IMG/VR virus record: IMGVR_UViG_3300045996_000812
Coordinates: 1 to 41,400 of that record
Source: a virus
Length of the DNA: 41,400 bases
Direction: 5' to 3' (one strand)
The notes beneath the pieces were generated by a model. It did not search any database, was not told where the DNA came from, and was given only the letters and a program-made list of their open reading frames with translations. Made by a program: the position numbers and the translations under genes. This document shows, in pieces, positions 1-13,412 of the stretch; the stretch's first letter is position 1, and each line of letters begins with the position of its first letter.

Positions 1-7
1 GGTGCCC

Positions 8-118
8 ACCACGTCCATACCACGTCTCTATTACGTGCCACGTACTACTTACCATGTCTTACCACGTCCCAACGAAGCTAAAGCCTTTTGATGGTAGGGG
101 TTACGTGGTTTACGTGGT
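8..118. repeat. CACGT iteron-like repeat cluster
   Basis: Copies of ACCACGTC start at 8, 19 and 61, with degenerate relatives at about 30, 37 and 51, giving a spacing close to 11 bp (one helical turn). After a gap, two tandem copies of TTACGTGGT lie at 101-109 and 110-118 in the opposite orientation. Regular helical spacing is typical of protein-binding iterons (replication origin or operator), but no Rep-type gene is visible nearby and the cluster touches the window edge, so its full extent is unknown. Confidence 0.5.
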
Positions 119-458
119 CCTGCGCCGGGTTCACGCAACTTTTATACGCTGAAAACCGTCCTGGAGCCTATCTACCGCTGTATCAACGTCTTGCAGCCAC
201 TTCAAGCCGTCGAAGAAACAGTGGTACGACGCCCTACGCCGGCTGTACGCTACCGGTTCATGGTCCGGGCGGTTTCAAAGCTTTGTTTGCAGCGAGTTCG
301 CGTAATTTTTTGGGGTGTGAAAATCACAGGGAAGGGAAGAGACTGAACAGGACTACGAGGCAGAAATTCGTAGTGAAGGGTGGCGGCTCTCTCCGTGCCA
401 TGAAAACCACCACCCGCAGACGGGAATCAGGTCAATTCACTGGCTCCCGACGTCGCTA
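119..458. other. No supported gene
   Basis: No open frame here has both a credible start and a ribosome site. Forward frame 3 contains protein-like stretches (about 201-302 and 321-495) but is broken by stops at 303-305 and 318-320 and offers no ATG, GTG or TTG at the right place. It may be a decayed gene or non-coding leader. I see no tRNA or strong terminator. Confidence 0.4.
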
Positions 459-1774: not shown

Positions 1775-1923
1775 GCGAAACCCCCTTGGCTTTTGAGCAG
1801 TTAACTACGCCGTTTCGACCCGTAAAATATTGACGCCACACATAAATTGTGTGTATTGCAACACAGACGAGTGTGATGATGAAAAAGTCAGTAAATACGG
1901 CATAAAATGTTGATTTGGTTCAC

Positions 1924-1968
1924 ACAACTAGGCCAGTTGTAAGTGTAAAACACACAACTGTGTTGTGT
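1924..1968. repeat. ACAAC/GTTGT dyads beside attP
   Basis: Two inverted repeats sit side by side: ACAACT-N5-AGTTGT (1924-1940) and ACACAAC-TGT-GTTGTGT (1952-1968). CACACAACT also occurs as a direct repeat at 1921 and 1951. They lie between integrase and the tRNA fragment, where integrase arm sites or repressor operators are expected. A related dyad lies in the DNA polymerase promoter (5596-5612), which favours an operator role. Confidence 0.5.
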
Positions 1969-1977
1969 CAAGTGTGG

Positions 1978-2023
1978 CCTGCTGATTACAAGTCAGCCGC
2001 TCTACCAACTGAGCTATCCCGGC
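1978..2023 (-). other. attP: Probable attP: 5' half of a tRNA-Thr(TGT) gene
   Basis: Reading leftward from 2023 there is a perfect tRNA 5' half: acceptor strand GCCGGGA, TA, D arm GCTC-AGTTGGTA-GAGC, and anticodon arm GCTGA-CTTGTAA-TCAGC with anticodon TGT. The sequence then leaves the tRNA pattern: there is no T-arm (GGTTCGA) and no acceptor 3' strand. The break just beyond the anticodon stem fits a tyrosine-integrase crossover in a tRNA gene. Integrase is the next gene, and phage genes lie on both sides. Phages usually carry the 3' half; here it is the 5' half. Confidence 0.75.
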
Positions 2024-2028
2024 TCATA

Positions 2029-2080
2029 ACTGCTTGCATTTCAACGTTTTACAGCGAATTCAGCCGAATCTGCAAGCAGT
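2029..2080. repeat. 10-bp inverted repeat next to attP
   Basis: ACTGCTTGCA at 2029-2038 is matched by its exact complement TGCAAGCAGT at 2071-2080, 32 bases apart. The pair brackets the promoter-like sequence upstream of the tRNA half. Candidate arm-type sites for integrase or a directionality factor. Confidence 0.45.
2048..2075 (-). promoter_or_regulatory. Putative promoter reading into the tRNA-Thr half
   Basis: On the reverse strand TTGCAG (2075-2070), a 16-base spacer and TGTAAA (2053-2048) resemble a sigma70 promoter. The predicted start, near 2041, lies about 18 bases before the tRNA 5' end. After integration this could drive the reconstituted host tRNA. The match is moderate. Confidence 0.35.
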
Positions 2081-2111: not shown

Positions 2112-2516
2112 TCACGACGCCTTGGCGATGCGATTTCGTCGAGCGAAGGACGAGGCCATGTCGATGAGGGCCGCTCGCTGCTCCTCGTGGAGCTTAAACC
2201 ACAGCTTTTCAAGCGGTTCCAGGGTGGGGTCCTTTCCCGCCAGTTCGGCCGGAATGCTGCCATACTTCTTCTTGATCTTGTCGGATACGGCAATCTTCTC
2301 GAGATCGTGATACTTAAATTTGAACACTTCGGCGATCAGCTTCAGGACGTATTTGGACGGGATTCCTTCACCCCTGACAATCCTACGAACGTGTTCGTAC
2401 GTCACATCGAGCTTCTCAGCAAGCTCGTTCATCGTCATACCCTGCTCTTCCATCTTCGAGGTGAGCAGCTCAGCCAGTTGAGTTCTAGGAGCTTCAAGAG
2501 TGGGTTTCATGGACAT
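2112..2516 (-). CDS. XRE-family HTH regulator (candidate repressor)
   Basis: A 134-residue protein with a helix-turn-helix at about residues 14-62. The sequence TMNELAEKLDVTYEHVRRIV fits the Cro/C1 HTH, followed by a conserved hydrophobic helix (LKLIAEVFKFKYHDL). The C-terminal 60 residues end in a helix (EEQRAALIDMASSFARRN) that probably dimerises; there is no LexA-type peptidase domain. GGAGG precedes the ATG by 8 bases. A promoter and an overlapping dyad lie just upstream. Its place beside attP and integrase suggests a lysogeny repressor, but the HTH gene at 5759 is an alternative. Confidence 0.8.
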   Translation of the reverse strand: MSMKPTLEAPRTQLAELLTSKMEEQGMTMNELAEKLDVTYEHVRRIVRGEGIPSKYVLKLIAEVFKFKYHDLEKIAVSDKIKKKYGSIPAELAGKDPTLEPLEKLWFKLHEEQRAALIDMASSFARRNRIAKAS

Positions 2517-2539
2517 TCAATGTGCCTCCGGTGTTCACA

Positions 2540-2568
2540 AGAATAACCAATTGACACTCTCTGGTCAA
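2540..2568 (-). promoter_or_regulatory. Promoter with operator dyad for the XRE gene
   Basis: Reverse-strand TTGACC (2568-2563), a 17-base spacer and TATTCT (2545-2540) make a good sigma70 match. The -35 overlaps a dyad TTGAC-N8-GTCAA (2551-2568), a candidate operator for autoregulation. GGAGG and the start codon follow. Confidence 0.55.
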
Positions 2569-2612
2569 CACAAAAAATGAATGTAGTTGTGATTGAACGC
2601 TGAAATGTGTGA

Positions 2613-2662
2613 GATAAAAAACAAAAAGGGTTGTACCGGTATACACCCGATACAACCCTTTT
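2613..2662 (-). terminator. Intrinsic terminator after dUTPase
   Basis: A perfect 12-bp inverted repeat (AAAAGGGTTGTA at 2624-2635, TACAACCCTTTT at 2651-2662) has a 15-base loop. On the reverse strand it is followed by TTTTTGTTTTTTAT. It closes the polA-dut transcript just before the repressor promoter. Confidence 0.8.
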
Positions 2663-2672
2663 GAATGCAATC

Positions 2673-3125
2673 CTATTGTAGGCCGCTCGACCCGAAGCCA
2701 CCAGCGCCCCTAGCTGTCTCGGCCAGCTCCTCTTCTACGGCAAATTCTATAGGCTCATACCTTGCGACAACCATCTGCGCGATTCGATCACCCTCGTTGA
2801 TGATGATCTCCGCACCAGGCCCGCGATTGACCCCTGTCCACAGCAGAATGACGCCGATCTCTCCTCGATACCCAGGATCGACCGTGCCAGGGCTGTTCAA
2901 CACCGTGATGCCGTGCTTCAGAGCCAGTCCCGAGCGCGGCCGGATCTGCGCCTCGAATCCAGGCGGCAGAGCGATGCTCAGGCCGGTCTTTACGAGCGTA
3001 GGAACTAGTGGCTTCAGAATGGCCGGCTGGATGGCCCGCAGATCGAATCCAGCGTCTTCGTCAGGTCCGTGCGCATACGACGGAATGACCGCGTTCGGGG
3101 CCAACTTCTTAATCTTCAGTGTCAA
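2673..3125 (-). CDS. dut: dUTP diphosphatase (trimeric dUTPase)
   Basis: Hydrolyses dUTP to dUMP and pyrophosphate, keeping uracil out of DNA and feeding dTMP synthesis. At 150 residues it has the usual length of the homotrimeric family and all five motifs in order: DAGFDLRA, RPRSGLAL, the GTVDPGYRGEIG substrate loop with its Asp and Tyr, GDRIAQMVV, and the C-terminal glycine-rich RGAGGFGSSG. The start appears to be TTG at 3125, with AGGAGA about 9 bases upstream. It pairs functionally with the thyX gene at the right end of the window. Confidence 0.95.
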   Translation of the reverse strand: MTLKIKKLAPNAVIPSYAHGPDEDAGFDLRAIQPAILKPLVPTLVKTGLSIALPPGFEAQIRPRSGLALKHGITVLNSPGTVDPGYRGEIGVILLWTGVNRGPGAEIIINEGDRIAQMVVARYEPIEFAVEEELAETARGAGGFGSSGLQ

Positions 3126-3201
3126 TATCAGATCTCCTCATCTTTTTGAAAATCGCGGAAGGGGCTTCGCCTTGGTTCTAAATTCGCGAATCCAGAATCA
3201 C

Positions 3202-3354
3202 TCAACCGCAGAAATCCTCCATCCCCGAGCACTGGAGCCTGTACAACCACTCGCAGTCCTCACACAAACCGGTTTGGCCTCGCTCTTCGTTGTGAGAGCA
3301 GGTATATAGCTGGTCTTCTTCTTCCACCGGCGTCTTTCTTATTTCGTCCAGCAT
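3202..3354 (-). CDS. Cys-rich 50-residue protein overlapping polA
   Basis: The ATG at 3354 lies inside the last codons of the polymerase gene in another frame (16-base overlap), a common arrangement for coupled translation. The protein has a C-x(12)-H-free cluster: a Cys at about 19, CEDC at 31-34, and further Cys at 42 and 49. This could bind zinc. A longer upstream start (3468) in the same frame would only add a shadow of the polymerase. No family recognised. Confidence 0.5.
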   Translation of the reverse strand: MLDEIRKTPVEEEDQLYTCSHNEERGQTGLCEDCEWLYRLQCSGMEDFCG

Positions 3355-5582
3355 TCGGCTATATGTCCTTCGTACTCCATCGTCACTTTCGTCATGAATT
3401 CTGCCCCTGCTCGCCGGATGCAGTCGCCGATCATGTCCATACACGCTTGTGCCGTCAGCGTCGGACACTCAACCACAAACTCGTCATACACATGGTTTAT
3501 GAGTCTAGCGGTTTTTACTTCCAAGATCGCGTCAAACTCTTTGACGTCGCCTTTACGAAGCTCAACCCTCTCGTCACCGATCTGTACGATGTAGGTGTCG
3601 TAGTCAGGCAGCAAATGCCACATGAATGGCCTCCCGTTCTTGTCATACCCAGCACCCATCGCGGTCTTGGTGACGTCAGCGTTGCCACCCTGAATCGGCG
3701 TGTTCTTGCCCTCGCGCTCGATGCTGCCAAACATCGCACCGTACTTCTTGTTGACGTCGCGTGCTTGAGGTGCTCGCTTGAACTTCTCAGCGTCCTCCAG
3801 CGCTCTCTTCTTCGCCAGTTCCCACGTCGGCTTCTCGAAGAACCGGACACGGCCAGAGAACGTTCGCGCGCAGAGGTTCATCTTGGCGAAGTTGCCTGAA
3901 TTCGTCAGGAACGCCTGCACCTTGGAGTTCGCCTTGCGCCAGATAGCCAGCAGCTCTTGGGCTGTTTCGACTGCGACCTTGAGGTCTTCGGCTAGAGCGT
4001 AAGCTTCCTTACCGTACGCGACACCAAAGTTGATGGCTTTGGCCCCGTCGCGCATCGTCTTGTGCTCAGGGCACTCGCACTTGTTTTTGTCATGCTCGAA
4101 CCGGCAGTTGACGCCTTTGGCCGACGTCCACTTCTCTCCCTGCATACTCGATGCAATCAGGGAGTGCATGTCCCAGTTGTTCGAAAAAGCCGCGATCCAC
4201 GACTCTTCACCGCTCATCTCGGCGATGATTCGCAACTCTGCGCCGTTCTCGTCAACCGTGATGATCGAGTAGCCTTCCTCGGCGACGAAGCACTTGCGGT
4301 AGCGCTTGTCCTTCGGGATGTTGTACAGGTTTGGCTTAACGCAACTCGGTCGGCCAGTCTCGGTGCCGTTTTGAAGGTGGTTCGCGTGAATTCGTCCGGT
4401 ATCGGGGTTGATGTATTCGAACCAATTCCGGCCGAAGGACTTCAAGGCGTGTGCGCTTTTGCGAAACGCCTGGATAGCTTGGATCACAGGCTTGTCCGAG
4501 AAGCGAGCCAGCACTTTCTTGCTGGTCCCCTTCAGCGACTTGAACCCAGGCATCTTCTGGAGTGCCGATAGGAGCTGCTCAGGCGCGTCGTAATTAACCG
4601 CCGCCTCGCCCTCGTACTTGTCCTTGTCCTTATCGAACTTCTTTACGCCGCGCCTTGCTTCCCTGAATTCTTCGAGGTACTCTGCTCGACGAACTCTGTC
4701 CTTCTCGTCTCTCCACCTCTCCTCTAGAGCCTTCAGGTCTACGTCTGGAGGAGCCGCCAAACCGACAACCGGCACAAAATACTTGTCTAGTTGTTTGACG
4801 TGTTCGACATGCTCTGTTTCGATAGACTCTACGAGAGCAAGCCACCGCTCCTGAGACAGCTTCTTGCCGTTAAGCCTCATCTCGGAGAAGGCAGGGATGG
4901 CGTCGTTTTCGATCTGGACCGCGCGCTCGACTTTGAGCTTCTCAGCCATACGAAGTTGGCCGACTCGAATAGCCTTGGGGAGGCGTGTATCGAGAGCCGC
5001 ATAGTCAAGCTGGTCCTCGGTGAGAGGTGTCTCAAGATCGAACGACTTCTGCAACTCCTTGTTCATCTTCAGGCGCAGGTATCGCTCAACCATGTCGTCC
5101 ATCGCCCAGAAGCCTTTGGCGAAGTAGTCTACCTTGCCCTGGTAGAACATACGCTCCGTCTCCATGCAGTCCCAGAACCAGAACGGCCGCAGACCAAGGC
5201 ACCAGTTGGCTGTCTCGTATTCGAATGCTAGATTGACACCCACCTTAAGCCACTCTCGCGACTCCAGGACAGGTTTCACTACGTCCAGCACCGGTTGTAC
5301 CCAACGACCGGGCTTCCTCCACCCCTGGTCCATCAGAACCTCGGTGGTGCCTGCAAATTTGAGGAGGTCCACCACATACTGTTCCTCGCGATTGCCGAAC
5401 TGAAGCGTCCTCACCTTCCGGTGGACGAACGTAGGCACTATGTTGGTCTCGAAGTCGAACCCTGGCTCTTTCTCCCGCTGAAAGAAGCTGTGCAGCTTGT
5501 GCAAACCTTCCTCGTCTCCAACCAGCATTCGGTTCAAGGGCGGGTTCATCTCGGACGGAACTAGCAATCGTGATTCACTCAT
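3339..5582 (-). CDS. polA: Family A DNA polymerase with 3'-5' exonuclease domain
   Basis: A 747-residue replicative-type phage polymerase I without the 5' nuclease. The exonuclease domain (about 38-225) has D43-x-E45 (FDFET), N117 with E121 where Asp is usual, and Y194-x3-D198. The polymerase domain has TGRPS near 409-413, motif A at D444 (TVDENGAELR, diverging from DYSQIELR), motif B at 511-523 (RDGAKAINFGVAYG), and motif C at 699-701 as VYDE rather than VHDE. A Cys/His cluster (C493, C502, C504, H507) is inserted between motifs A and B. Transcribed leftward from a promoter just ahead of its ATG. Confidence 0.93.
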   Translation of the reverse strand: MSESRLLVPSEMNPPLNRMLVGDEEGLHKLHSFFQREKEPGFDFETNIVPTFVHRKVRTLQFGNREEQYVVDLLKFAGTTEVLMDQGWRKPGRWVQPVLDVVKPVLESREWLKVGVNLAFEYETANWCLGLRPFWFWDCMETERMFYQGKVDYFAKGFWAMDDMVERYLRLKMNKELQKSFDLETPLTEDQLDYAALDTRLPKAIRVGQLRMAEKLKVERAVQIENDAIPAFSEMRLNGKKLSQERWLALVESIETEHVEHVKQLDKYFVPVVGLAAPPDVDLKALEERWRDEKDRVRRAEYLEEFREARRGVKKFDKDKDKYEGEAAVNYDAPEQLLSALQKMPGFKSLKGTSKKVLARFSDKPVIQAIQAFRKSAHALKSFGRNWFEYINPDTGRIHANHLQNGTETGRPSCVKPNLYNIPKDKRYRKCFVAEEGYSIITVDENGAELRIIAEMSGEESWIAAFSNNWDMHSLIASSMQGEKWTSAKGVNCRFEHDKNKCECPEHKTMRDGAKAINFGVAYGKEAYALAEDLKVAVETAQELLAIWRKANSKVQAFLTNSGNFAKMNLCARTFSGRVRFFEKPTWELAKKRALEDAEKFKRAPQARDVNKKYGAMFGSIEREGKNTPIQGGNADVTKTAMGAGYDKNGRPFMWHLLPDYDTYIVQIGDERVELRKGDVKEFDAILEVKTARLINHVYDEFVVECPTLTAQACMDMIGDCIRRAGAEFMTKVTMEYEGHIAECWTK

Positions 5583-5590
5583 CTTTAACC

Positions 5591-5619
5591 ACTATACAAC
5601 AATTCTCGTTGTTTTGCAA
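5591..5619 (-). promoter_or_regulatory. polA promoter with ACAAC-N7-GTTGT operator
   Basis: Reverse-strand TTGCAA (5619-5614), a 17-base spacer and TATAGT (5596-5591) lie only 8 bases from the polA ATG, so the message should be leaderless or nearly so. The dyad ACAAC-N7-GTTGT (5596-5612) fills the spacer, a classic place for repressor binding. Confidence 0.55.
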
Positions 5620-5655
5620 CGTGTGGTGATTAAGTATTTTTAATGGTCAAACCAC

Positions 5656-5698
5656 TTGACAACCACCCCTTGTGTCAATTACGATGAAGTTGTACAAC
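5656..5698 (+). promoter_or_regulatory. Rightward promoter for the HTH gene, with dyads
   Basis: TTGACA (5656-5661), 18 bases, TACGAT (5680-5685). TTGACA also forms a dyad with TGTCAA (5673-5678), and the perfect palindrome GTTGTACAAC lies at 5689-5698 near the expected transcription start. A second TTGACT is at 5713-5718. Likely a regulated early promoter opposite the polA promoter. Confidence 0.55.
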
Positions 5699-5758
5699 GC
5701 GAGCGAGAGCACTTGACTCTAATGCTTTACGCTGTACCCAAGCGATTGTGAGAATAGT

Positions 5759-6052
5759 ATGCCCCAGAATGACTATAACCATTTGAAACAATGGCTATTG
5801 CCAAAAATACGAGAGAGAAAACTTTCGGTCGAGAAATTTGCAAGACTCGTGAAAATCTCCCGAGCGTCTGTGTACTTCTGGTTCAACGACGTAACCAGGC
5901 CCGACGAACAAACAATGGCCCGAGTCTGCCAGGTTCTCGGGACTCCCCTAGAGGAGGGCCTCCGTCAGTACACTCCGAAAGTTGAGGGTCGGCCGGTTGG
6001 CTTTCAGCCGGTGTCTTCCTCTCATGCACACCAGCGCAGAAATCGCAAGTGA
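5759..6052 (+). CDS. Small HTH regulator (Cro-like)
   Basis: A 97-residue protein with an XRE-type helix-turn-helix at about residues 22-66: LSVEKFARLVKISRASVYFW is the two-helix core, then EQTMARVCQVLGTPLEEGL. The last 25 residues are low-complexity. It is the first rightward gene after the divergent control region, as Cro is in lambdoid phages. No clear Shine-Dalgarno sequence. Its 3' half overlaps a convergent reverse-strand gene by about 170 bases. Confidence 0.75.
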   Translation: MPQNDYNHLKQWLLPKIRERKLSVEKFARLVKISRASVYFWFNDVTRPDEQTMARVCQVLGTPLEEGLRQYTPKVEGRPVGFQPVSSSHAHQRRNRK

Positions 6053-6134
6053 ATTCCAAGTTATTACAGTCCATATGAAGCAGCTCTACTGGCAATGTAT
6101 CGCCGCAGTCCGAGCAAGGTTCTAGCCAGATCAT
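5883..6134 (-). CDS. Zinc-ribbon-like small protein, antisense to the HTH gene
   Basis: An 83-residue frame from ATG 6134, with AGGAAG 7 bases upstream. The first 45 residues read as a zinc ribbon: C-x2-C (CSDC, residues 7-10) and C-x2-C (CDFC, near 31-34) separated by a hydrophobic-acidic stretch. The remainder lies antisense to the HTH coding region and looks non-homologous. The ribbon and ribosome site favour a real gene, but the long antiparallel overlap is unusual, so the true 3' end is uncertain. Confidence 0.45.
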   Translation of the reverse strand: MIWLEPCSDCGDTLPVELLHMDCNNLEFTCDFCAGVHERKTPAESQPADPQLSECTDGGPPLGESREPGRLGPLFVRRAWLRR

Positions 6135-6199
6135 TATCAATCTTCCTGGAATAGTTTGTTTACTTTGTATAGCTTACGGACCAACCTCTGCATTACCCC

Positions 6200-6227
6200 T
6201 TGACACTCGGAATCTGTGTGGTACACT
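6200..6227 (+). promoter_or_regulatory. Promoter upstream of the terminase module
   Basis: TTGACA (6200-6205), 16-base spacer, TACACT (6222-6227), preceded by C and with TGTGTGG just before the -10, as at 34324. A second partial copy of the motif (GAGTGTAGCATGAT, 6251-6264) follows; the same string, one base different, forms the -10 region at 20298-20311. Confidence 0.6.
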
Positions 6228-6312
6228 TAATACAGATCAAACTTGACGATGAGTGTAGCATGATTTGCATACTGTGCAACTGCTTCCTCTAGTACGCTAG
6301 TACTGACTTTGA

Positions 6313-6900
6313 ATGTTAAGGCCACAAGCCGAGCAGCTCATCGACCGCGCACGAGCGGGTGAGCGTCTGAATACCGGTGATCGCCGCCATTGTATTTCCT
6401 ACCTTATGGCGACCCAGCCTGACATGACCAAGGTCGCTATGGGCGACTTGTTTCACGTCAATGAGGCTATGATTCGCCAGGATTTCAAGAAAATCCGCGA
6501 AGAGAAGGCCAAGCTCGTCAAAGAGGACGACATCGGCCTGGTCATCGCCGACATCGCATTGACTTTCGAGAGACAGGTAATCGACATCGAGCGTAGCAAG
6601 AAAAAGTGTGAGCTGGGGAGCCGCGCTTACATGGACCACTGCCGCGCTATCGCGAGAATGCAGGTTGATCGAGTCGAGTTGCTGCAAAACCTCGGCTATT
6701 ACCCGAAGAATCTGGGGAACATGACCATCGACAAGTTCGAGTACAAATCCGTCGTCACGAAAGACGGATCGGTTGATACTCGCAGGGTGGACATGACTAT
6801 CGAAGTAGATCAGAGCGAGACTGAACGAATGGAAGCTATCGACGCTGAGTTCGAAGATGTCAAGATGCTCCCTGCTCCAGAAGAGAACACGAATGAGTAA
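6313..6900 (+). CDS. Probable terminase small subunit / DNA-recognition protein
   Basis: A 195-residue protein with a predicted HTH near residues 20-58 (MTKVAMGDLFHVNEAMIRQD resembles a helix-turn-helix that senses DNA). A long charged helix (DIALTFERQVIDIERSKKKC onward) suits oligomerisation, and the tail is acidic. Size, HTH plus coiled coil, and position upstream of terL match small terminase subunits, which bind the packaging site and feed DNA to the large subunit. No conserved signature fixes the assignment. No strong ribosome site is visible before the ATG. Confidence 0.6.
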   Translation: MLRPQAEQLIDRARAGERLNTGDRRHCISYLMATQPDMTKVAMGDLFHVNEAMIRQDFKKIREEKAKLVKEDDIGLVIADIALTFERQVIDIERSKKKCELGSRAYMDHCRAIARMQVDRVELLQNLGYYPKNLGNMTIDKFEYKSVVTKDGSVDTRRVDMTIEVDQSETERMEAIDAEFEDVKMLPAPEENTNE

Positions 6901-7081
6901 TGAGTACGAGAGCGCCGCGATCCTCACGATTAAGAATGCGGCTGAGATGTCCAAGCGAGGACGAAAATCCATCGCTACTTGGCTGAGACACGCGGCAGAC
7001 GACCTGGAGGAACTAGGAAGTCAATACAGCGGCTCGTTTCGAGCACGATATCTCTATCCTCGCCAAAGTCCCACAAGCTGA
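6893..7081 (+). CDS. Small conserved-looking phage protein
   Basis: A 62-residue protein whose ATG overlaps the end of the previous gene by 8 bases, implying coupled translation. It contains SKRGRKSIATWLRHAADDLE and then FRARYLYPRQSP. The pattern of a WLR-x-A-x-DLE helix followed by an F-x-ARYLYP end is familiar from small phage proteins of unknown function. No catalytic or membrane features. Confidence 0.6.
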   Translation: MSNEYESAAILTIKNAAEMSKRGRKSIATWLRHAADDLEELGSQYSGSFRARYLYPRQSPTS

Positions 7082-7189
7082 CGTACCAGGTGTACGAGCA
7101 GATGCGTAGGCGCTACGGCGCTGTACGCCATATCCGTTAAGCCTGTAGGCAGGCACTAAACCCCTCCCACGGATCGCATCCTGGGATCG

Positions 7190-7218
7190 ACGCCACCTCT
7201 TAACCGGGGTGGCGTTTT
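7190..7218 (+). terminator. Intrinsic terminator upstream of tRNA-His
   Basis: ACGCCACC (7190-7197) pairs with GGTGGCGT (7208-7215) around a 10-base loop and is followed by TTTTCACTTTCT. It separates the early-late junction genes from the tRNA and terL. Confidence 0.65.
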
Positions 7219-7234
7219 CACTTTCTAAACAAGT

Positions 7235-7309
7235 TTGACGGAAGCTCAACGGCAGAGCAGCGGGCTGTGAATCCGCTTGTTGCGGGTTCGAATCCCGTCC
7301 GTCAACCCA
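7235..7309 (+). tRNA. tRNA-His (GTG)
   Basis: A complete cloverleaf: acceptor TTGACGG/CCGTCAA, AA, D arm GCTC-AACGGCA-GAGC, anticodon arm GCGGG-CTGTGAA-TCCGC with anticodon GTG at 7267-7269, variable loop, T arm GCGGG-TTCGAAT-CCCGT. Position 73 is C, the histidine discriminator, and CCA is encoded. The base at -1 is T rather than the G that tRNA-His normally carries. It could support late translation. A weak promoter (TTAACC/TCTAAA, 7200-7229) would start transcription right at the tRNA. Confidence 0.9.
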
Positions 7310-7323
7310 CTTCGAGCGCTTAT

Positions 7324-7683
7324 ATGAAACTCGTCCGTCAACCTGAAGGGTCATCGCTGTGCGGACAAGCGTGTGTAGCAATGGCGGCAGGAGTTTCACT
7401 AAGCAAAGCCACTGATGCTGTAGGACATGATAAGGAGCGCGGCACTAACACACGAGAGGTCATAACAGCCTTGCGATTGCTGGGAGTCTCCTGCGCAGAT
7501 CGCCTACGTCGAGTGTCCCGTGCGAAGCCGGTATTACCGGCTAGAGCAATCCTGTACCTCAACCGTGGCAAAGGCGCTCACCACTGGATGCTGACCTGGG
7601 ACGGCGCTGTGTATGACCCAGAAGATCGCTGGCCTGATTACCACGGCTGGCGGATCACCAGCTATCTAGAAATCTACTCGTGA
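7324..7683 (+). CDS. C39-like / papain-fold peptidase-type protein
   Basis: A 119-residue protein beginning 14 bases after the tRNA. The N-terminus carries GSSLCGQACVAMAAGV, the nucleophile helix typical of C39-like peptidases; a later HHW (GAHHWMLTWDG) followed by YDPEDRW supplies the His and Asp. Such small papain-fold proteins cleave peptides or isopeptides, or serve as non-catalytic domains; the substrate is unknown. I start at ATG 7324 because the longer frame would run into the tRNA. It lies 10 bases before terL. Confidence 0.65.
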   Translation: MKLVRQPEGSSLCGQACVAMAAGVSLSKATDAVGHDKERGTNTREVITALRLLGVSCADRLRRVSRAKPVLPARAILYLNRGKGAHHWMLTWDGAVYDPEDRWPDYHGWRITSYLEIYS

Positions 7684-7693
7684 ACTGCGTCGT

Positions 7694-9046
7694 ATGCCTC
7701 GAAAAAAAGCTCCTGAGAACTTCTACAATACGTCGCAAGTTTTGACAGAGAGGACCCTAGTTAAACCGGTCACTCTCCATCTTCCCCCTCTTCACCCTCG
7801 TCAGTTCGAGCTGGTGAATGCTCTCGACGTAAATCCTGCTCTTCGCTTCATCTGCGGGGCTTGCGGCACAAAGTTTGGCAAGACCTATGGTTCGACAATC
7901 GCTCTTGTTCAGCGCGCCTGGAGATCAGAGGATACGTTGAATTGGTGGGTTGCTCCCACGTTCGCGCAGTCGAAGATGGCTTACGGCCTCGTCAAGCGTC
8001 TCCTTCCGCGAGACACGTTTGCGGAATACAAGGCCGATCTAAGGCTGGTCTTGTTGCGACCGGATGGCGCAGAGCATAGCGTCATTGAATTCAAATCAGG
8101 CGACAACCCGGATTCGCTTCGCGGGTTCGGTGTTCATTTCTTTGTCATGGATGAGGCGGCTCGCTGCCCATACGACTCCGCAGTCTCCCTGTTAACCACG
8201 GTGACGCAGACGATGGGCAAAGGCTTCTTCATTTCCACTCCTCACGCTCGGAACTGGTTTTACGACTTCTACCAACGAGGTGAGAAGTTCTTCGAGGACG
8301 GTTCACCAAAGTTTGACAACCCGGATGATGACGAGTTCCAGATGTGGTTCTCGCTCCGTATGCCGTCTTGGACGAACCCTCACGTCAAGCTAGAGTCTAT
8401 TCGACACATGAAGAAGAACCTACCGGATGATGTGTTCCGGCAGGAAGTCGGCGCGCAATTCCTCGAGGATTCGGCCGGCGTATTCAGAGGTGTCAGAGAT
8501 TGCATCAGAGGGGTTCTACAGCCGTACACAGACGGACACCGTTATGTGATGGGCGTGGACTTGGCGAAATTGAAGGACTACACAGTCCTCACCGTGATGG
8601 ATGCAGCGTCTAAGCACGTTGTTTATCACGAGCGTTTCAACAAGATGAGCTGGCAATCCCAGTATCACAAGATCATCCAAGTAGCTAGGCAGTACAAGGC
8701 GCTGGCTGTTGTCGATTCCACCGGCATCGGCGACCCAATCGTAGAGACTATCAGGAGCGCAGGTATCCCGGTTGAGTCATACAAGATCAGCGGGCCTACT
8801 GCTAAGCAGCAGCTCATTGATAAGCTAAAGATAAGCATCGAGCAGCAGAGGATCTCGTTCCCTGACATTCCTGTTCTGCGGCGCGAGCTTCAGAGTTATG
8901 AGTACAAGATGAGCGAGAGCGGGACAATCAAATACTCTGCTCCAGCAGGTCAACACGACGATTGTGTGATCTCTCTTGCTTTAGCAAACTGGCTGTGCTC
9001 CCAAGATCCTTGGGTTTATAAGTTCACACAAGTGCGTGGCATCTAA
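7694..9046 (+). CDS. terL: Terminase large subunit
   Basis: The 450-residue ATP-driven packaging motor and nuclease. The ATPase domain has a Walker A at residues 55-64 (GACGTKFGKT), Walker B at 149-155 (FFVMDEA) and a coupling motif (FISTPH, 179-184). The RNase H-like nuclease domain has D289 (GVDLAKLKDYT), a second Asp in VVDSTG and a third in GQHDDCVISLALA. Length is normal. It would assemble with the small subunit upstream and dock on the portal, although four accessory genes intervene before portal. Confidence 0.95.
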   Translation: MPRKKAPENFYNTSQVLTERTLVKPVTLHLPPLHPRQFELVNALDVNPALRFICGACGTKFGKTYGSTIALVQRAWRSEDTLNWWVAPTFAQSKMAYGLVKRLLPRDTFAEYKADLRLVLLRPDGAEHSVIEFKSGDNPDSLRGFGVHFFVMDEAARCPYDSAVSLLTTVTQTMGKGFFISTPHARNWFYDFYQRGEKFFEDGSPKFDNPDDDEFQMWFSLRMPSWTNPHVKLESIRHMKKNLPDDVFRQEVGAQFLEDSAGVFRGVRDCIRGVLQPYTDGHRYVMGVDLAKLKDYTVLTVMDAASKHVVYHERFNKMSWQSQYHKIIQVARQYKALAVVDSTGIGDPIVETIRSAGIPVESYKISGPTAKQQLIDKLKISIEQQRISFPDIPVLRRELQSYEYKMSESGTIKYSAPAGQHDDCVISLALANWLCSQDPWVYKFTQVRGI

Positions 9047-9070
9047 TCCAACGTTTAGGAATAACGACCA

Positions 9071-11131
9071 GTGAAGTTCAAACCTGTATTACGAATCCTC
9101 TTCGCGCTTGTGTGTCTACAGACAGCGCTGTGGTCGGCCACCACGACAGTGTCGCAGACCATTAAAGGGCCGGATGGAGTGGCGGCAGATGGTACCGCAT
9201 TCATCAAGATCACTGCGCCGTGCATGTCTGGGTCTGACTACGTAGGCGACAAAACCATTCCGGTGCGATTTGAGGGTGGTGATTTCAGTGTTGCTCTTGT
9301 CCCTAACGACACGTGTGTGGTTGTTGGGGTGAGCGCTTCGGCCTGGTCTTCTGCAACAGCATATCGTCCTGGCGACAGAGTCACGTATAGCAGCAGAACG
9401 TATGTAGCTCTATTGAACTCTACTAACGCCGTCCCGACATCGAACCCTACAAAGTGGTCGGTAGTGTCTACAAGTTATACCGTGTCGTTTCTGCTTAGAG
9501 GCGGAACGCAATGGTATGAGACGTGGAATGTTCCGACTTCTGTGGCAGAAGTTTCGATTGACGACGTGAAGGTCGCGCAAGGAACTCTACCGGTTATACC
9601 GCTTCGTGGAGAAAAAGGCGAGACTGGGTCTCAAGGTATCCAGGGTGTCCAGGGCGAGCAGGGAATTCAAGGAATTCAAGGCGAGCAGGGAATTCAAGGA
9701 ATTCAAGGCGAGCAGGGAATTCAGGGCGAGACAGGTCTTCAGGGTATCCAAGGTATCCAAGGTATCCAAGGCGAGACAGGAGCAACCGGAGCAACCGGAG
9801 CAACCGGAGCCACCGGAGCTACCGGTCAAGGGTACACCTGGCGCGGTGCGTGGGCTGGTGGTACGGCTTACTCAGCGTACGACGGAGTCAGCTACAACGC
9901 TGTCTCGTGGGTTGCGGTCGCGTCCAGCACGGGCGTGACGCCGGGAACCGACCCGACCAAGTGGCAGGAGTTCATGGCGGGAACTGCGCCGTATTCTTGC
10001 TCACTCGATAACGACACGGAAACCACCTGCACACATAACTTAGGTACAACGAAGCCCTGGGTTGCCTGCTACGACTCAGGCGGGGACATGCTCGGTGGAA
10101 CTGGATCGGCGACGAGCGTAACATCGGTTGTTGCGAACTCGTTGAACGCTGTGACCATCACCACCAGTGGTGCGGAAGCGAGCCGAGTGTGTGCTATCTC
10201 TTCCGGCAGTATGGGACCAGCGGGCGAGACAGGAGACACAGGTGCAACTGGTACTGCTGGCGCAAACGGAACCGGTTTTAATGGGCGAGGCACATACGCC
10301 GAAATGGTGGCTTCATCGCCTACCATCGACGACACATGGGAACTTACGAACGCCTTAGTGTCGGGTGGGTGCGGCGCGGGCGGGGGCACGGCTAAGAGTT
10401 TCTGCGTGTGGGACGGCTCGGCTTGGGTCGTCAGTAGTGCCAGCGGTGGGGATTTCTCATCCAACACATCTACCTCGGTAGATGGTGAGGTGGTGCTGTT
10501 CAGTGGCACAGGTGGTAAGACTGGTAAGCGCGCAACGGGCAGCGGCGCAGCGAAACTGACTAATGGTGTCCTCGGGAATGTGAGCGGCAGCGCGAGCGAT
10601 TGCGTCAAAGTGGATGGGAGCAGCGGCTCGTGTGGTAGCCCAACGCTCTCGTACTGGCAGGTGACGCCGCACGGTGATACAGCGTCCGGTAAAGCCGCTG
10701 GATCAGCGACAAAGGCTGTGTTGATTGGAATCTTTGTCCCAGTCACCGTCAACTTTAGCCGCTTAATGTTCCACATCCAGGTAGCAGATGGTGCCAACAA
10801 CAGTTCTCTCTGTATATACGACAGCAGTGGAACATTTGTAGCGGGGACCGTTCCAGCTACGTACGCTGGCACTGGCTTCCAAGATCAGGCTATTTCCGGT
10901 GGCGGATCGGCCACACTAACTGGTGGTAATTGGTACTACTTAGGATGGGCAAGCGCGGCTACGACTGCACGCATGGCGATTTCATCGAACGCAGGCAACT
11001 ACGTGACTAACATTGCGTGGGCACAGCAGAGCAATACCTTGACCACGAATGGTGACTGTAGACAGAATATTACACTGCCGAGTGCCGCGACCTATTCATC
11101 TGAGCGAGCGCCCTTGGTAGCGTTCCGATAG
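9071..11131 (+). CDS. Exported collagen-like tail-fibre/adhesin protein
   Basis: A 686-residue protein with a GTG start. Residues 1-22 look like a Sec signal peptide (MKFKPVLRI, then [13 protein letters not shown]). Residues 91-131 and 256-300 are two similar modules (W-x-ATAY-x-x-GD-x-V-x-Y ... NPTKW) like the chitin-binding CBM5/12 fold. Between them lie about 24 uninterrupted Gly-X-Y triplets (180-252), which form a collagen triple helix; a shorter run follows near residue 390. The C-terminal 150 residues form a beta-rich head. The architecture suits a trimeric receptor-binding fibre, but a signal peptide is unusual on a virion protein. Confidence 0.75.
9608..9826 (+). repeat. Gly-X-Y coding repeat (collagen-like)
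   Basis: Tandem 9-bp units encoding GIQ, GEQ, GET and GAT. A 27-bp unit (GGCGAGCAGGGAATTCAAGG plus AATTCAA) recurs near 9650-9720, then GGTATCCAA copies near 9745-9770, then GCAACCGGA copies near 9780-9820. Near-identical DNA copies suggest recent expansion by slippage. Confidence 0.9.
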
Positions 11132-11142
11132 ATAGGAAGATC

Positions 11143-11589
11143 ATGAAAGCGCTTATCGCAATCGCTTTGTGCGCCGCACTCTGCCTCTCGGGGCAGGTAG
11201 CGGTGACACAACTTATCCTGGAGCAGCAAGTACGACTCAGTAAACCTGCTGCTCCGGGTTCGTTCATCGGTGTCGCAGCAGACGGAGTGTCGCTCGGCAT
11301 CGTCGCGGTCGGTCCTGTGACGAAAGTAGTCTACGGTAGTCCAACTAACCCTGGATGTGTGGCAGAAGAACTGGTAGACGGAAAGTTTTCCGGTACGTAC
11401 CGCTTTGCCGCCGCGAAGATCGAATCCGCAGCGGTGTTTCGCAACGGTGTACGGCTATCGCGCGAGGGAGAGTATACGCTGGATATCACGACAGGCACAC
11501 TTAAAATTCCCGGCGCTGCGATAAACGACCCCGTGCTCTGCGATTACGTGATCAAGTTCCCCGCTGAAGACGTGGACGTAGCTCGATGA
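11143..11589 (+). CDS. Small exported protein, unknown function
   Basis: A 148-residue protein starting with a clear signal peptide (MKALIAIALCAALCLSGQ). The mature part is beta-rich, with V-x-R-N-G-V-R-L (AVFRNGVRLSREGEYTLDI) resembling the repeated beta-hairpin 'NG' motif of phage fibre and baseplate proteins. Two or three cysteines (PGCVAEEL, VLCDYV) could form a disulfide outside the cytoplasm. It lies 11 bases after the fibre gene and overlaps the next gene by ATGA, so the three are probably co-translated. Confidence 0.65.
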   Translation: MKALIAIALCAALCLSGQVAVTQLILEQQVRLSKPAAPGSFIGVAADGVSLGIVAVGPVTKVVYGSPTNPGCVAEELVDGKFSGTYRFAAAKIESAAVFRNGVRLSREGEYTLDITTGTLKIPGAAINDPVLCDYVIKFPAEDVDVAR

Positions 11590-13412
11590 AACTCTTAATC
11601 ACCGCAATCGCTAGTTGCCTGATCGCTTACGCAGCCGACGCGCCTAGTGTCACTAACATCGCCGTCACACATCACGATGGGCAGACGTTCGTGACGTGGA
11701 CGGACCCGACGACGGGGACGCCGGCCAACTATCGGTACAAGGTCTATCGATCCCTGTCGGCGATCACAGACGCACCTTCGCTCGCGGCGTCCACGTTGAT
11801 CCAGACCGGAGTTTTCAACAACAGCGGGCAGCAAACCGGACAGTTCCCGTACAATCAGACAACTCGTCAGGACACCGGAAAGCTGATGAGCATCACCGCG
11901 TCTACCGGCACAACGACACCGAATTCGTGCGGACCGGGTGTATGCGGTGCGGCGTTGGCTGCTTTGTCAGGCTTGGCGGTCCACACGGCGACGGCAAACG
12001 AGAGCGCGTACTACGCTGTTATCACAACGGATCGCACGGGTGTAGAAACGGATTCGCCCGTTTCGGTTGGAAATAATGCAACAACAGTTTCCGTAGCAGA
12101 GACGATTGCGACGATTCTACCGCTGAAGTACTACGATTCCGAAGATTCGACCACGCGCGATGCGGGCGTGGAGATTACCGGAGTCGCCAACCGTCCGTTG
12201 TTCATCAAATTGCACCAGTCGGGAGGATGCACCGGCAATATCACCTCTGGCGGCGATCTCTGGCAGTTGTGGGGCGACTCCACAATGGGCTATCAGGAGG
12301 GAATTCAGCAAATCTTCGCAGTGCGCGAGTTACATACAACCGCCAACTATCCGACCGCGCTCGGGCAACTAGCTCTGCAAGTGCTTCCGTGTGACACGCT
12401 GTGGACGGACACCGGACTGGCAGACTTGGAAACGTTTTGGTTCGGATATCTCGCGAGTCCACTGAATCATCCGACCGGGCGCGCGTGGGAGTTCAGCGAG
12501 GCTGTGTTGAATCGGATCACTGAATGGAGTATCGCGGCCTACGGTGCGAATCCGAATAAGGTCTATGCGTACGGTCAGTCGATGGGTGGGTGGGCTTCCG
12601 TCTCGTGGGCGTGGCAGCGCAGGCCCGATCTGTTTGCGGCGGTCTTTCCAAATCTCCCTCGGTGGAACGGGGAGAATACGTCAGGCATTCTTCAGATCCC
12701 CTCGATGCTGACAGGTGGCACGGTGAATCCATCGGCAGGGCAAGTGATGTCGGACGGTTCCACCTTACTGTCTACGCGTATGGACGGTATCGCAACGGCC
12801 AACGTGCCAAACTGCGCGACCAATCGACCGCCGATCATCTGGGGTATTGGTCGGAATGATACTTTTGCAAATTGGCAAAATCAACTGGATGCTGTTGCCG
12901 CATTGAAGGCATGTCATTACGCCTTTAGTTTCGCGTGGAATAATGGTAACCATTCGACCGGCGCGAACGCGATCAACGCGCTTTTCGCACACTACGACAC
13001 GGCGTACGCCAAGAATGTCAGCTATCCGGCGTTCGCCAACTCAAGCCTCGACAGCGACACGGCAAGCGGCTGCTCATCGCAGGCTTCCGTCTCAGCGCAG
13101 ACGGAGCATTGCTATATCAACGCTGGTTGGTCGTGGACCGTTACCACAGACAGCGCAACTCAGTGGGTCGCAACAATCTCTAATTCAGGGGGGAACGCGA
13201 CCGTGGACATCACGCCGAGGAATACGCAGGCGTTTCGTCCAAAGCTGGGGGGCCTTGTGTCGTACAACCTTAGCACCGGAGCAAGCGGGTTACTGCGCGT
13301 AGATGGCTACGGTCTGGTGACCTTACCATCGGCGTCGATTAGCGGGACAACGACTGTGACGTTTACGCGAGTGCCGGATTTGTTTCCCCTCCCTGGCGGT
13401 GTAGGAAGGTAG
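11586..13412 (+). CDS. Exported alpha/beta-hydrolase (esterase/depolymerase type)
   Basis: A 608-residue protein with a signal peptide (MKLLITAIASCLIAYAADA). Residues about 20-172 form a fibronectin-III-like region (NIAVTHHDGQTFVTWTDP, then YRYKVYRS). An alpha/beta-hydrolase domain follows: nucleophile S332 in GQSMGG after a helix, acid D425 (WGIGRNDTF) and H456 (NNGNHSTG), a Ser-Asp-His triad in the correct order. A beta-rich tail runs from about 470 to 608. The layout recalls secreted feruloyl esterases and polyhydroxybutyrate depolymerases. It could deacylate host surface polysaccharide for the adjacent fibre; the substrate cannot be read from sequence. Confidence 0.75.
   Translation: MKLLITAIASCLIAYAADAPSVTNIAVTHHDGQTFVTWTDPTTGTPANYRYKVYRSLSAITDAPSLAASTLIQTGVFNNSGQQTGQFPYNQTTRQDTGKLMSITASTGTTTPNSCGPGVCGAALAALSGLAVHTATANESAYYAVITTDRTGVETDSPVSVGNNATTVSVAETIATILPLKYYDSEDSTTRDAGVEITGVANRPLFIKLHQSGGCTGNITSGGDLWQLWGDSTMGYQEGIQQIFAVRELHTTANYPTALGQLALQVLPCDTLWTDTGLADLETFWFGYLASPLNHPTGRAWEFSEAVLNRITEWSIAAYGANPNKVYAYGQSMGGWASVSWAWQRRPDLFAAVFPNLPRWNGENTSGILQIPSMLTGGTVNPSAGQVMSDGSTLLSTRMDGIATANVPNCATNRPPIIWGIGRNDTFANWQNQLDAVAALKACHYAFSFAWNNGNHSTGANAINALFAHYDTAYAKNVSYPAFANSSLDSDTASGCSSQASVSAQTEHCYINAGWSWTVTTDSATQWVATISNSGGNATVDITPRNTQAFRPKLGGLVSYNLSTGASGLLRVDGYGLVTLPSASISGTTTVTFTRVPDLFPLPGGVGR

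Follow-up and report, generated by a model that had tools for sequence, protein, structure and literature searches.

The 5' half of a tRNA-Thr(TGT) gene beside a phage integrase gene as a predicted attachment site

Most phages that integrate at tRNA genes carry the 3' half of the gene, so that the host promoter is kept. In the soil phage sequence analysed here, the first-pass annotation had read the 5' half of a tRNA-Thr(TGT) gene beside an integrase gene and had taken it for part of an attP, which implies that the phage must also supply the transcription of the tRNA. The stretch analysed (the window) is the whole IMG/VR record IMGVR_UViG_3300045996_000812 with a length of 41.4 kb.

A tRNA 5' half between repressor and integrase genes

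On the minus strand, an HTH repressor gene is followed by a gap of 88 bp, the tRNA half and a tyrosine integrase gene (Table 1). Since phage genes lie on both sides of the half, the locus is in the unintegrated (attP) form. The catalytic residues of tyrosine recombinases (R, K, H-x-x-R, H/W, Y) are present in the integrase as R165, K189, H257-x-x-R260, H283 and Y292, which are invariant in an alignment of the four homologues of its clade. TerL and DNA polymerase have their nearest matches in the Tunturiibacter phage Tunturi_4 (PP885687), a phage of Acidobacteriota, with identities of 50 and 35% and, therefore, the host is probably a member of the Acidobacteriota, as judged from these two proteins. 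Tunturi_4 has the same genome plan, with the regulator followed by the integrase, but its integrase shares just 23% identity, and the region upstream of the integrase gene yielded no recognisable tRNA half. A candidate tRNA 3' half in Tunturi_4 (L002:31920-31950) was dropped since cmscan and blast against 394 tRNAs gave no support. The window is probably a fragment of a longer phage genome since its relatives reach 88-109 kb.

Table 1 Features of the locus and further observations in the window
Feature	Position	Strand	Basis or remark
Tyrosine integrase, 316 aa	824..1774	-	Pfam PF00589 105.6 bits; PHROG 1 and 216
Octamer AGTTGTGT, four copies (≤1 mismatch)	1845..1968	.	candidate integrase arm-type or repressor sites
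Candidate integrase promoter TTGACA-18-TACACT (10/12)	1942..1971	-	just past the tRNA half
tRNA-Thr(TGT) 5' half, predicted attP common core	1978..2023	-	Rfam match, tRNA comparison, same slot in relatives
Inverted repeat, 10 bp, perfect, gap 32	2071-2080 / 2029-2038	.	between repressor gene and tRNA half
Proposed promoter TTGCAG-16-TGTAAA	2048..2075	-	7/12 consensus match, not above chance
HTH_3 repressor-type regulator	2112..2516	-	HTH_3 42.9 bits; PHROG transcriptional repressors; transcribed toward the tRNA half
Candidate repressor promoter TTGACC-17-TATTCT (9/12)	2540..2568	-	nearest upstream consensus-like start for a transcript from repressor to tRNA half
Strong terminator-like hairpin	2624..2662	-	upstream of the repressor unit
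Contig end	1-130		numerous short CACGT/ACGTGG repeats
Complete tRNA-His(GTG) gene	7235-7309	+	between putative small terminase gene and TerL
ORF with collagen-like GXY repeats	9071-11131	+	
ORF with esterase-like GQSMGG motif	11586-13412	+	
Glycosyltransferase-like ORF			after the esterase-like ORF, adjoining portal; same in Tunturi_4

The half is 46 nt long (minus strand, 2023 to 1978; GCCGGGATAGCTCAGTTGGTAGAGCGGCTGACTTGTAATCAGCAGG) and comprises the 5' strand of the acceptor, the D arm, the complete anticodon arm and AGG of the variable loop, with nt 1 at 2023 and the final AGG ending at 1978. The anticodon arm is perfect (GCTGA-CTTGTAA-TCAGC); its loop CTTGTAA spans 1992-1986 and contains the Thr anticodon TGT at 1990-1988. 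The anticodon loop ends 211 bp ahead of the integrase start, and 88 bp separate the half from the repressor stop codon. The Rfam tRNA model scored the half with 30.7 bits, which is above the gathering score, with the T arm filled with unrelated bases. The best match among the 394 gathered tRNAs was a tRNA-Thr(TGT) with an identity of 41/42, stopping exactly at nt 46. ARAGORN called no tRNA at 1978-2023 and a matching 3' half (ending TCCCGGC, in tRNA context) was not found within the window; therefore, the element is a genuine tRNA 5' half and not a full tRNA, as the first-pass annotation had it. A 3' half nearby had been named there as an observation that would speak against an attP, and a split or permuted tRNA would agree with the presence of just half a tRNA, but with the 3' half absent from the window the probability of such a gene is close to nil.

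The exact 46-mer had zero matches in genome_contigs and viral_contigs, which revealed neither a host genome with the matching tRNA-Thr gene nor this very phage in integrated form. With a degenerate tRNA-Thr pattern, the matches in genome_contigs were nearly all Gammaproteobacteria, and the pattern retrieved 119 tRNA-Thr genes from viral_contigs, 115 of them complete and 4 odd (masked base, mismatch, indel or contig end), with no clear 5' half.

Relatives with 5' halves of other tRNAs

As single-protein queries, neither the integrase nor the terminase of the window found relatives, but an alignment of TerL brought in 28, three of which (L246, L252 and G006) have an integrase of the same lineage, with 33-48% identity within the clade. 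All three carry a tRNA 5' half in the identical slot and orientation, and each half is from another tRNA: tRNA-Arg(TCG) in L246 (GCGCCCGTAGCTCAGTTGGATAGAGCGGCTGGCTTCGAACCA) and tRNA-Asp(GTC) in L252 (GGGGACGTAGTTCAGCTGGTTAGAACGCTGCCCTGTCAC), both isotypes read from the anticodon loop, and tRNA-Lys(CTT) in G006. The similarity to tRNA-Asp in L252 ends at the anticodon loop, and that in L246 runs a few nt beyond. The integrase gene starts 211 (window), 206, 202 and 201 bp after the anticodon loop in the four phages, and orthologues of the repressor gene adjoin the half in L246 and L252 and lie at the attL side in G006. Judging from these sequences, four different tRNA halves at such a constant placement are not a product of chance.

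An alignment of two integrases recovered, among close relatives, only the L246 contig, and one of all four added, among the matches listed, only distant integrases. Near the latter (L286, L346, L351 and others), the tRNA pieces recognised are whole tRNAs or else 3' or central portions, a pattern that, in a small sample and with a biased tRNA library, would fit a switch to the 5' half in the window lineage. On two further contigs of relative phages, L366 and L383, 26 tRNA genes were observed within ~7 kb (2202-9091).

G006 (IMGVR_UViG_3300005529_000026, 94,356 bp), a metagenome record, is the relative in integrated form, with the integrase gene at its right and the repressor gene at its left end. 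Near both ends there is a 43-bp direct repeat (GTGGGCGCGTAGCTCAACTGGCAGAGCAACTGACTCTTAATCA) which equals the tRNA-Lys 5' half plus 2 bp, the core ending 3 nt beyond the anticodon loop. At the left end, phage DNA is followed by an intact tRNA-Lys (73 bits) with a host-like, 9-bp terminator-like hairpin just downstream; at the right end, a host-like promoter (ATGACG-18-TATAAT, 10/12) precedes the 5' half, which leads straight into the upstream region of the integrase gene. The host flanks amount to only 42 and 77 bp; joining the outer flanks gave a 197-bp piece with one complete tRNA-Lys including promoter and terminator. A tRNA gene is absent from the reconstituted attP, and the integrase gene is whole in the provirus. 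As read from this record, the ends of G006 are the attL and attR expected of a 5'-half attP. A prophage whose attachment sites split a tRNA at the anticodon arm, which the first-pass annotation had proposed to look for, is hence at hand for tRNA-Lys, with an integrase that is 38-39% identical to that of the window. A further complete tRNA-Thr(TGT) gene (GCCGCTGTAGCTCAACGG...) was observed close to the integrase end of G006 (L275).

The ends of G006 could also be those of a free phage which carries a full tRNA-Lys and a nearby copy of the 5' half and whose contig was broken between the two. The record does extend beyond the repeats by no more than tens of bases at either end, and in L252 a full tRNA is close to a half, but the break must then fall within ~120 bp of 94 kb, and the outer flanks, one with a promoter and the other with a terminator, form a complete tRNA unit when rejoined; we regard a free phage as improbable. 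The same data bear on the possibility that the phage integrates elsewhere, with the window fragment being a relic or a regulatory RNA that resembles a tRNA. The failure to find an integrated copy of the exact phage in genome_contigs and viral_contigs would agree with this, but in four phages, halves of different isotypes fill this slot with constant spacing to the integrase gene, and G006, when integrated, is flanked by exactly such a repeat, which makes a relic or regulatory RNA highly improbable. Hardly more can be said for tRNA-dependent lysogeny, in which the tRNA is broken on integration and its loss is made good by a complete phage tRNA of the same isotype. In the mycobacteriophage Fionnbharth, the core is ~10 bp and compensation comes from a separate phage tRNA gene (PMC10865867). 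Whole tRNA genes do occur in the group (tRNA-His in the window, tRNA-Ala in L252 and tRNA-Thr(TGT) in G006), but the cores are 43-46 bp long, the whole tRNA is rebuilt in G006 and the sole complete tRNA in the window is the tRNA-His. Fionnbharth and the window lineage nevertheless share that tRNA function after integration relies on sequence supplied by the phage.

In sum, the window element is, with a probability of about 0.88, the attP core of a temperate phage whose integrase targets the anticodon-loop region of a tRNA-Thr(TGT) gene of the host for recombination. The comparison of the four phages strongly supports the reading as a 5'-half attP; the half appears in its attP form in the window, L246 and L252 and in its attL/attR form in G006.

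Transcription of the restored tRNA

According to the model, the phage would contribute the tRNA 5' half and, after integration, the intact tRNA would consist of the phage 5' half and the host 3' half, preceded by phage DNA of the repressor side. The host promoter would be displaced together with the original 5' half to the other end, ahead of the integrase gene. Strand exchange would take place around the anticodon loop, but since the repeat corresponds to the 5' half, phage DNA would always come to lie upstream of the intact tRNA and the host promoter ahead of the integrase gene, wherever in the core the strands are exchanged. This topology is apparent from the ends of G006 and would apply to the window by analogy. 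Since rejoining of the G006 flanks yields a promoter, tRNA-Lys and a terminator, we infer that phage sequence must transcribe the restored tRNA, and the corresponding claim of the first-pass annotation gains support from three relatives, one of them integrated.

The promoter proposed for this purpose, TTGCAG/TGTAAA in the 88-bp gap between the repressor gene and the tRNA half, is present but did not withstand analysis. It matches the sigma70 consensus of other bacteria, on which all promoter scans of this analysis were based, at 7 of 12 positions, and at least 7/12 was reached by 1980 of 2000 dinucleotide shuffles of the gap; the pair was, therefore, rejected as chance-level. It was also missing from the output of the scan that listed the candidate integrase and repressor promoters. 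This was the best sigma70 match in the gap, so that no consensus-like promoter was found there, and none at 9/12 was found in the matching gaps of L246 and L252. The 10-bp inverted repeat said to bracket the promoter (ACTGCTTGCA at 2080-2071 and TGCAAGCAGT at 2038-2029) does exist and is unlikely by chance, as a perfect 10-bp inverted pair arose in only 5 of 2000 shuffles, but no inverted repeat of at least 7 bp was found in the equivalent regions of the relatives. Folding gave no remarkable signal for a structured RNA ahead of the half either (z = -0.99), and this possibility was rejected. L246 and L252 have in common an element, GCTCTAACTTTTC...GTTTTTG, upstream of halves of different tRNAs, which is possibly a promoter or an integrase arm site.

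Two sources of the tRNA transcript have to be weighed. A dedicated phage promoter in the gap, with or without a protein that binds the inverted repeat, would be in line with the rarity of this repeat among shuffles and with a promoter-like site in G006 (TTGCCA-18-GATAAT, 10/12) located 128 bp ahead of the tRNA, where an extra ORF lies between repressor gene and tRNA. The chance-level match in the 88-bp gap, the lack of a 9/12 site in the gaps of L246 and L252 and the arrangement in L252 speak against it, and we consider it possible, with odds clearly short of even. In L252, a complete, slightly degenerate tRNA-Ala(CGC) is located between the repressor gene and the tRNA-Asp half (2396-2471, minus strand). 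Its start, 9 bp beyond the stop codon of the repressor gene, suggests co-transcription; the tRNA-Ala may be a co-transcribed phage tRNA or the relic of an earlier integration target. Furthermore, no terminator was predicted between the repressor gene and the tRNA half in the window or in L252. Because of these two observations, readthrough from the repressor gene is favoured, and we infer it as the preferred source: transcription from the candidate repressor promoter (2568-2540) would run into the restored tRNA, whose 5' end would be made by RNase P.

The repressor gene would be active in lysogens. It is conceivable that lysogens obtain an essential host tRNA from the repressor transcript and that this tie has been kept while the lineage moved among tRNA-Thr, -Arg, -Asp and -Lys genes; since the repressor gene would come to lie upstream of the tRNA 3' half on integration, survival of the lysogen would then depend on continued transcription of the repressor operon. 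We put this forward as a tentative and rather unlikely extension of the model.

The integrase gene appears to keep a promoter of its own. Counterparts of the candidate just past the tRNA half are in the same place in L252 (TTGACA-18-TACATT) and G006 (TTGACG-16-GATACT), and none was found in L246. The octamer AGTTGTGT occurs in this region at 1968-1961 (-), 1959-1952 (+), 1929-1922 (+) and 1852-1845 (-), with orientations given relative to the minus strand; four copies are weak evidence, as some shuffles also reach four.

A known minority class kept by one integrase lineage

The first-pass annotation regarded a 5'-half arrangement as unusual. It is indeed a minority type, but has been recorded before: of the 3919 islands listed by Islander, 159 carry a 5' and 3760 a 3' fragment of the tRNA gene, and an anticodon-centred crossover is among its recorded subsites (PMC4383910). 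In the 5' islands, as in the window lineage, the tRNA gene is split and the 5' fragment is displaced. This class is represented here by the attP form in the window, L246 and L252 and by the displaced 5' part at the integrase end of G006, and the cores of G006, L252 and L246 end at or just past the anticodon loop, as for an anticodon-centred site (site A). The fragment adjoins the integrase gene in the window, and identity to a host tRNA gene is seen in the relative G006. Islander gives counts only and names no phage lineage, whereas the lineage described here comprises four related phages which all retain the 5'-half arrangement, each with another tRNA.

Two further systems are close. Among 88 elements integrated at tRNA genes of Sinorhizobium meliloti, 9 match the 5' end and leave the gene intact (PMC11476347); that study concerns an alphaproteobacterial host, and the supply of a promoter is not addressed in its main text, where the word does not occur. 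The pTN3-like archaeal integrases use a tRNA 5' half as attB, with a 41-bp core, and the restored tRNA is parted from its original promoter (PMC8371274, PMC5495485). The use of the 5' half and the separation from the promoter are the same in the window lineage. In the pTN3-like elements, attP is inside the integrase gene, so that integration splits this gene, and the integrase promoter reportedly drives the tRNA (PMC8371274, PMC5495485), whereas in the window lineage, from another domain of life, attP lies 201-211 bp upstream of the integrase gene, which stays whole at the other end and is intact in G006, and the tRNA joins the repressor side. In view of these precedents from Islander, S. meliloti and the pTN3-like elements, the arrangement is a known minority class, rare but recorded.

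What is new is an integrase lineage of Acidobacteriota phages that keeps the 5' half across four tRNAs, in a clade of four members. To our knowledge, little is known about the phages of Acidobacteriota, for which a target rule is gained. A lineage that changes its targets yet retains the 5' half indicates that carrying this half may serve phages as a lasting strategy and need not be an accident, and it leads to the prediction that expression of a host tRNA would come under phage control in the lysogen.
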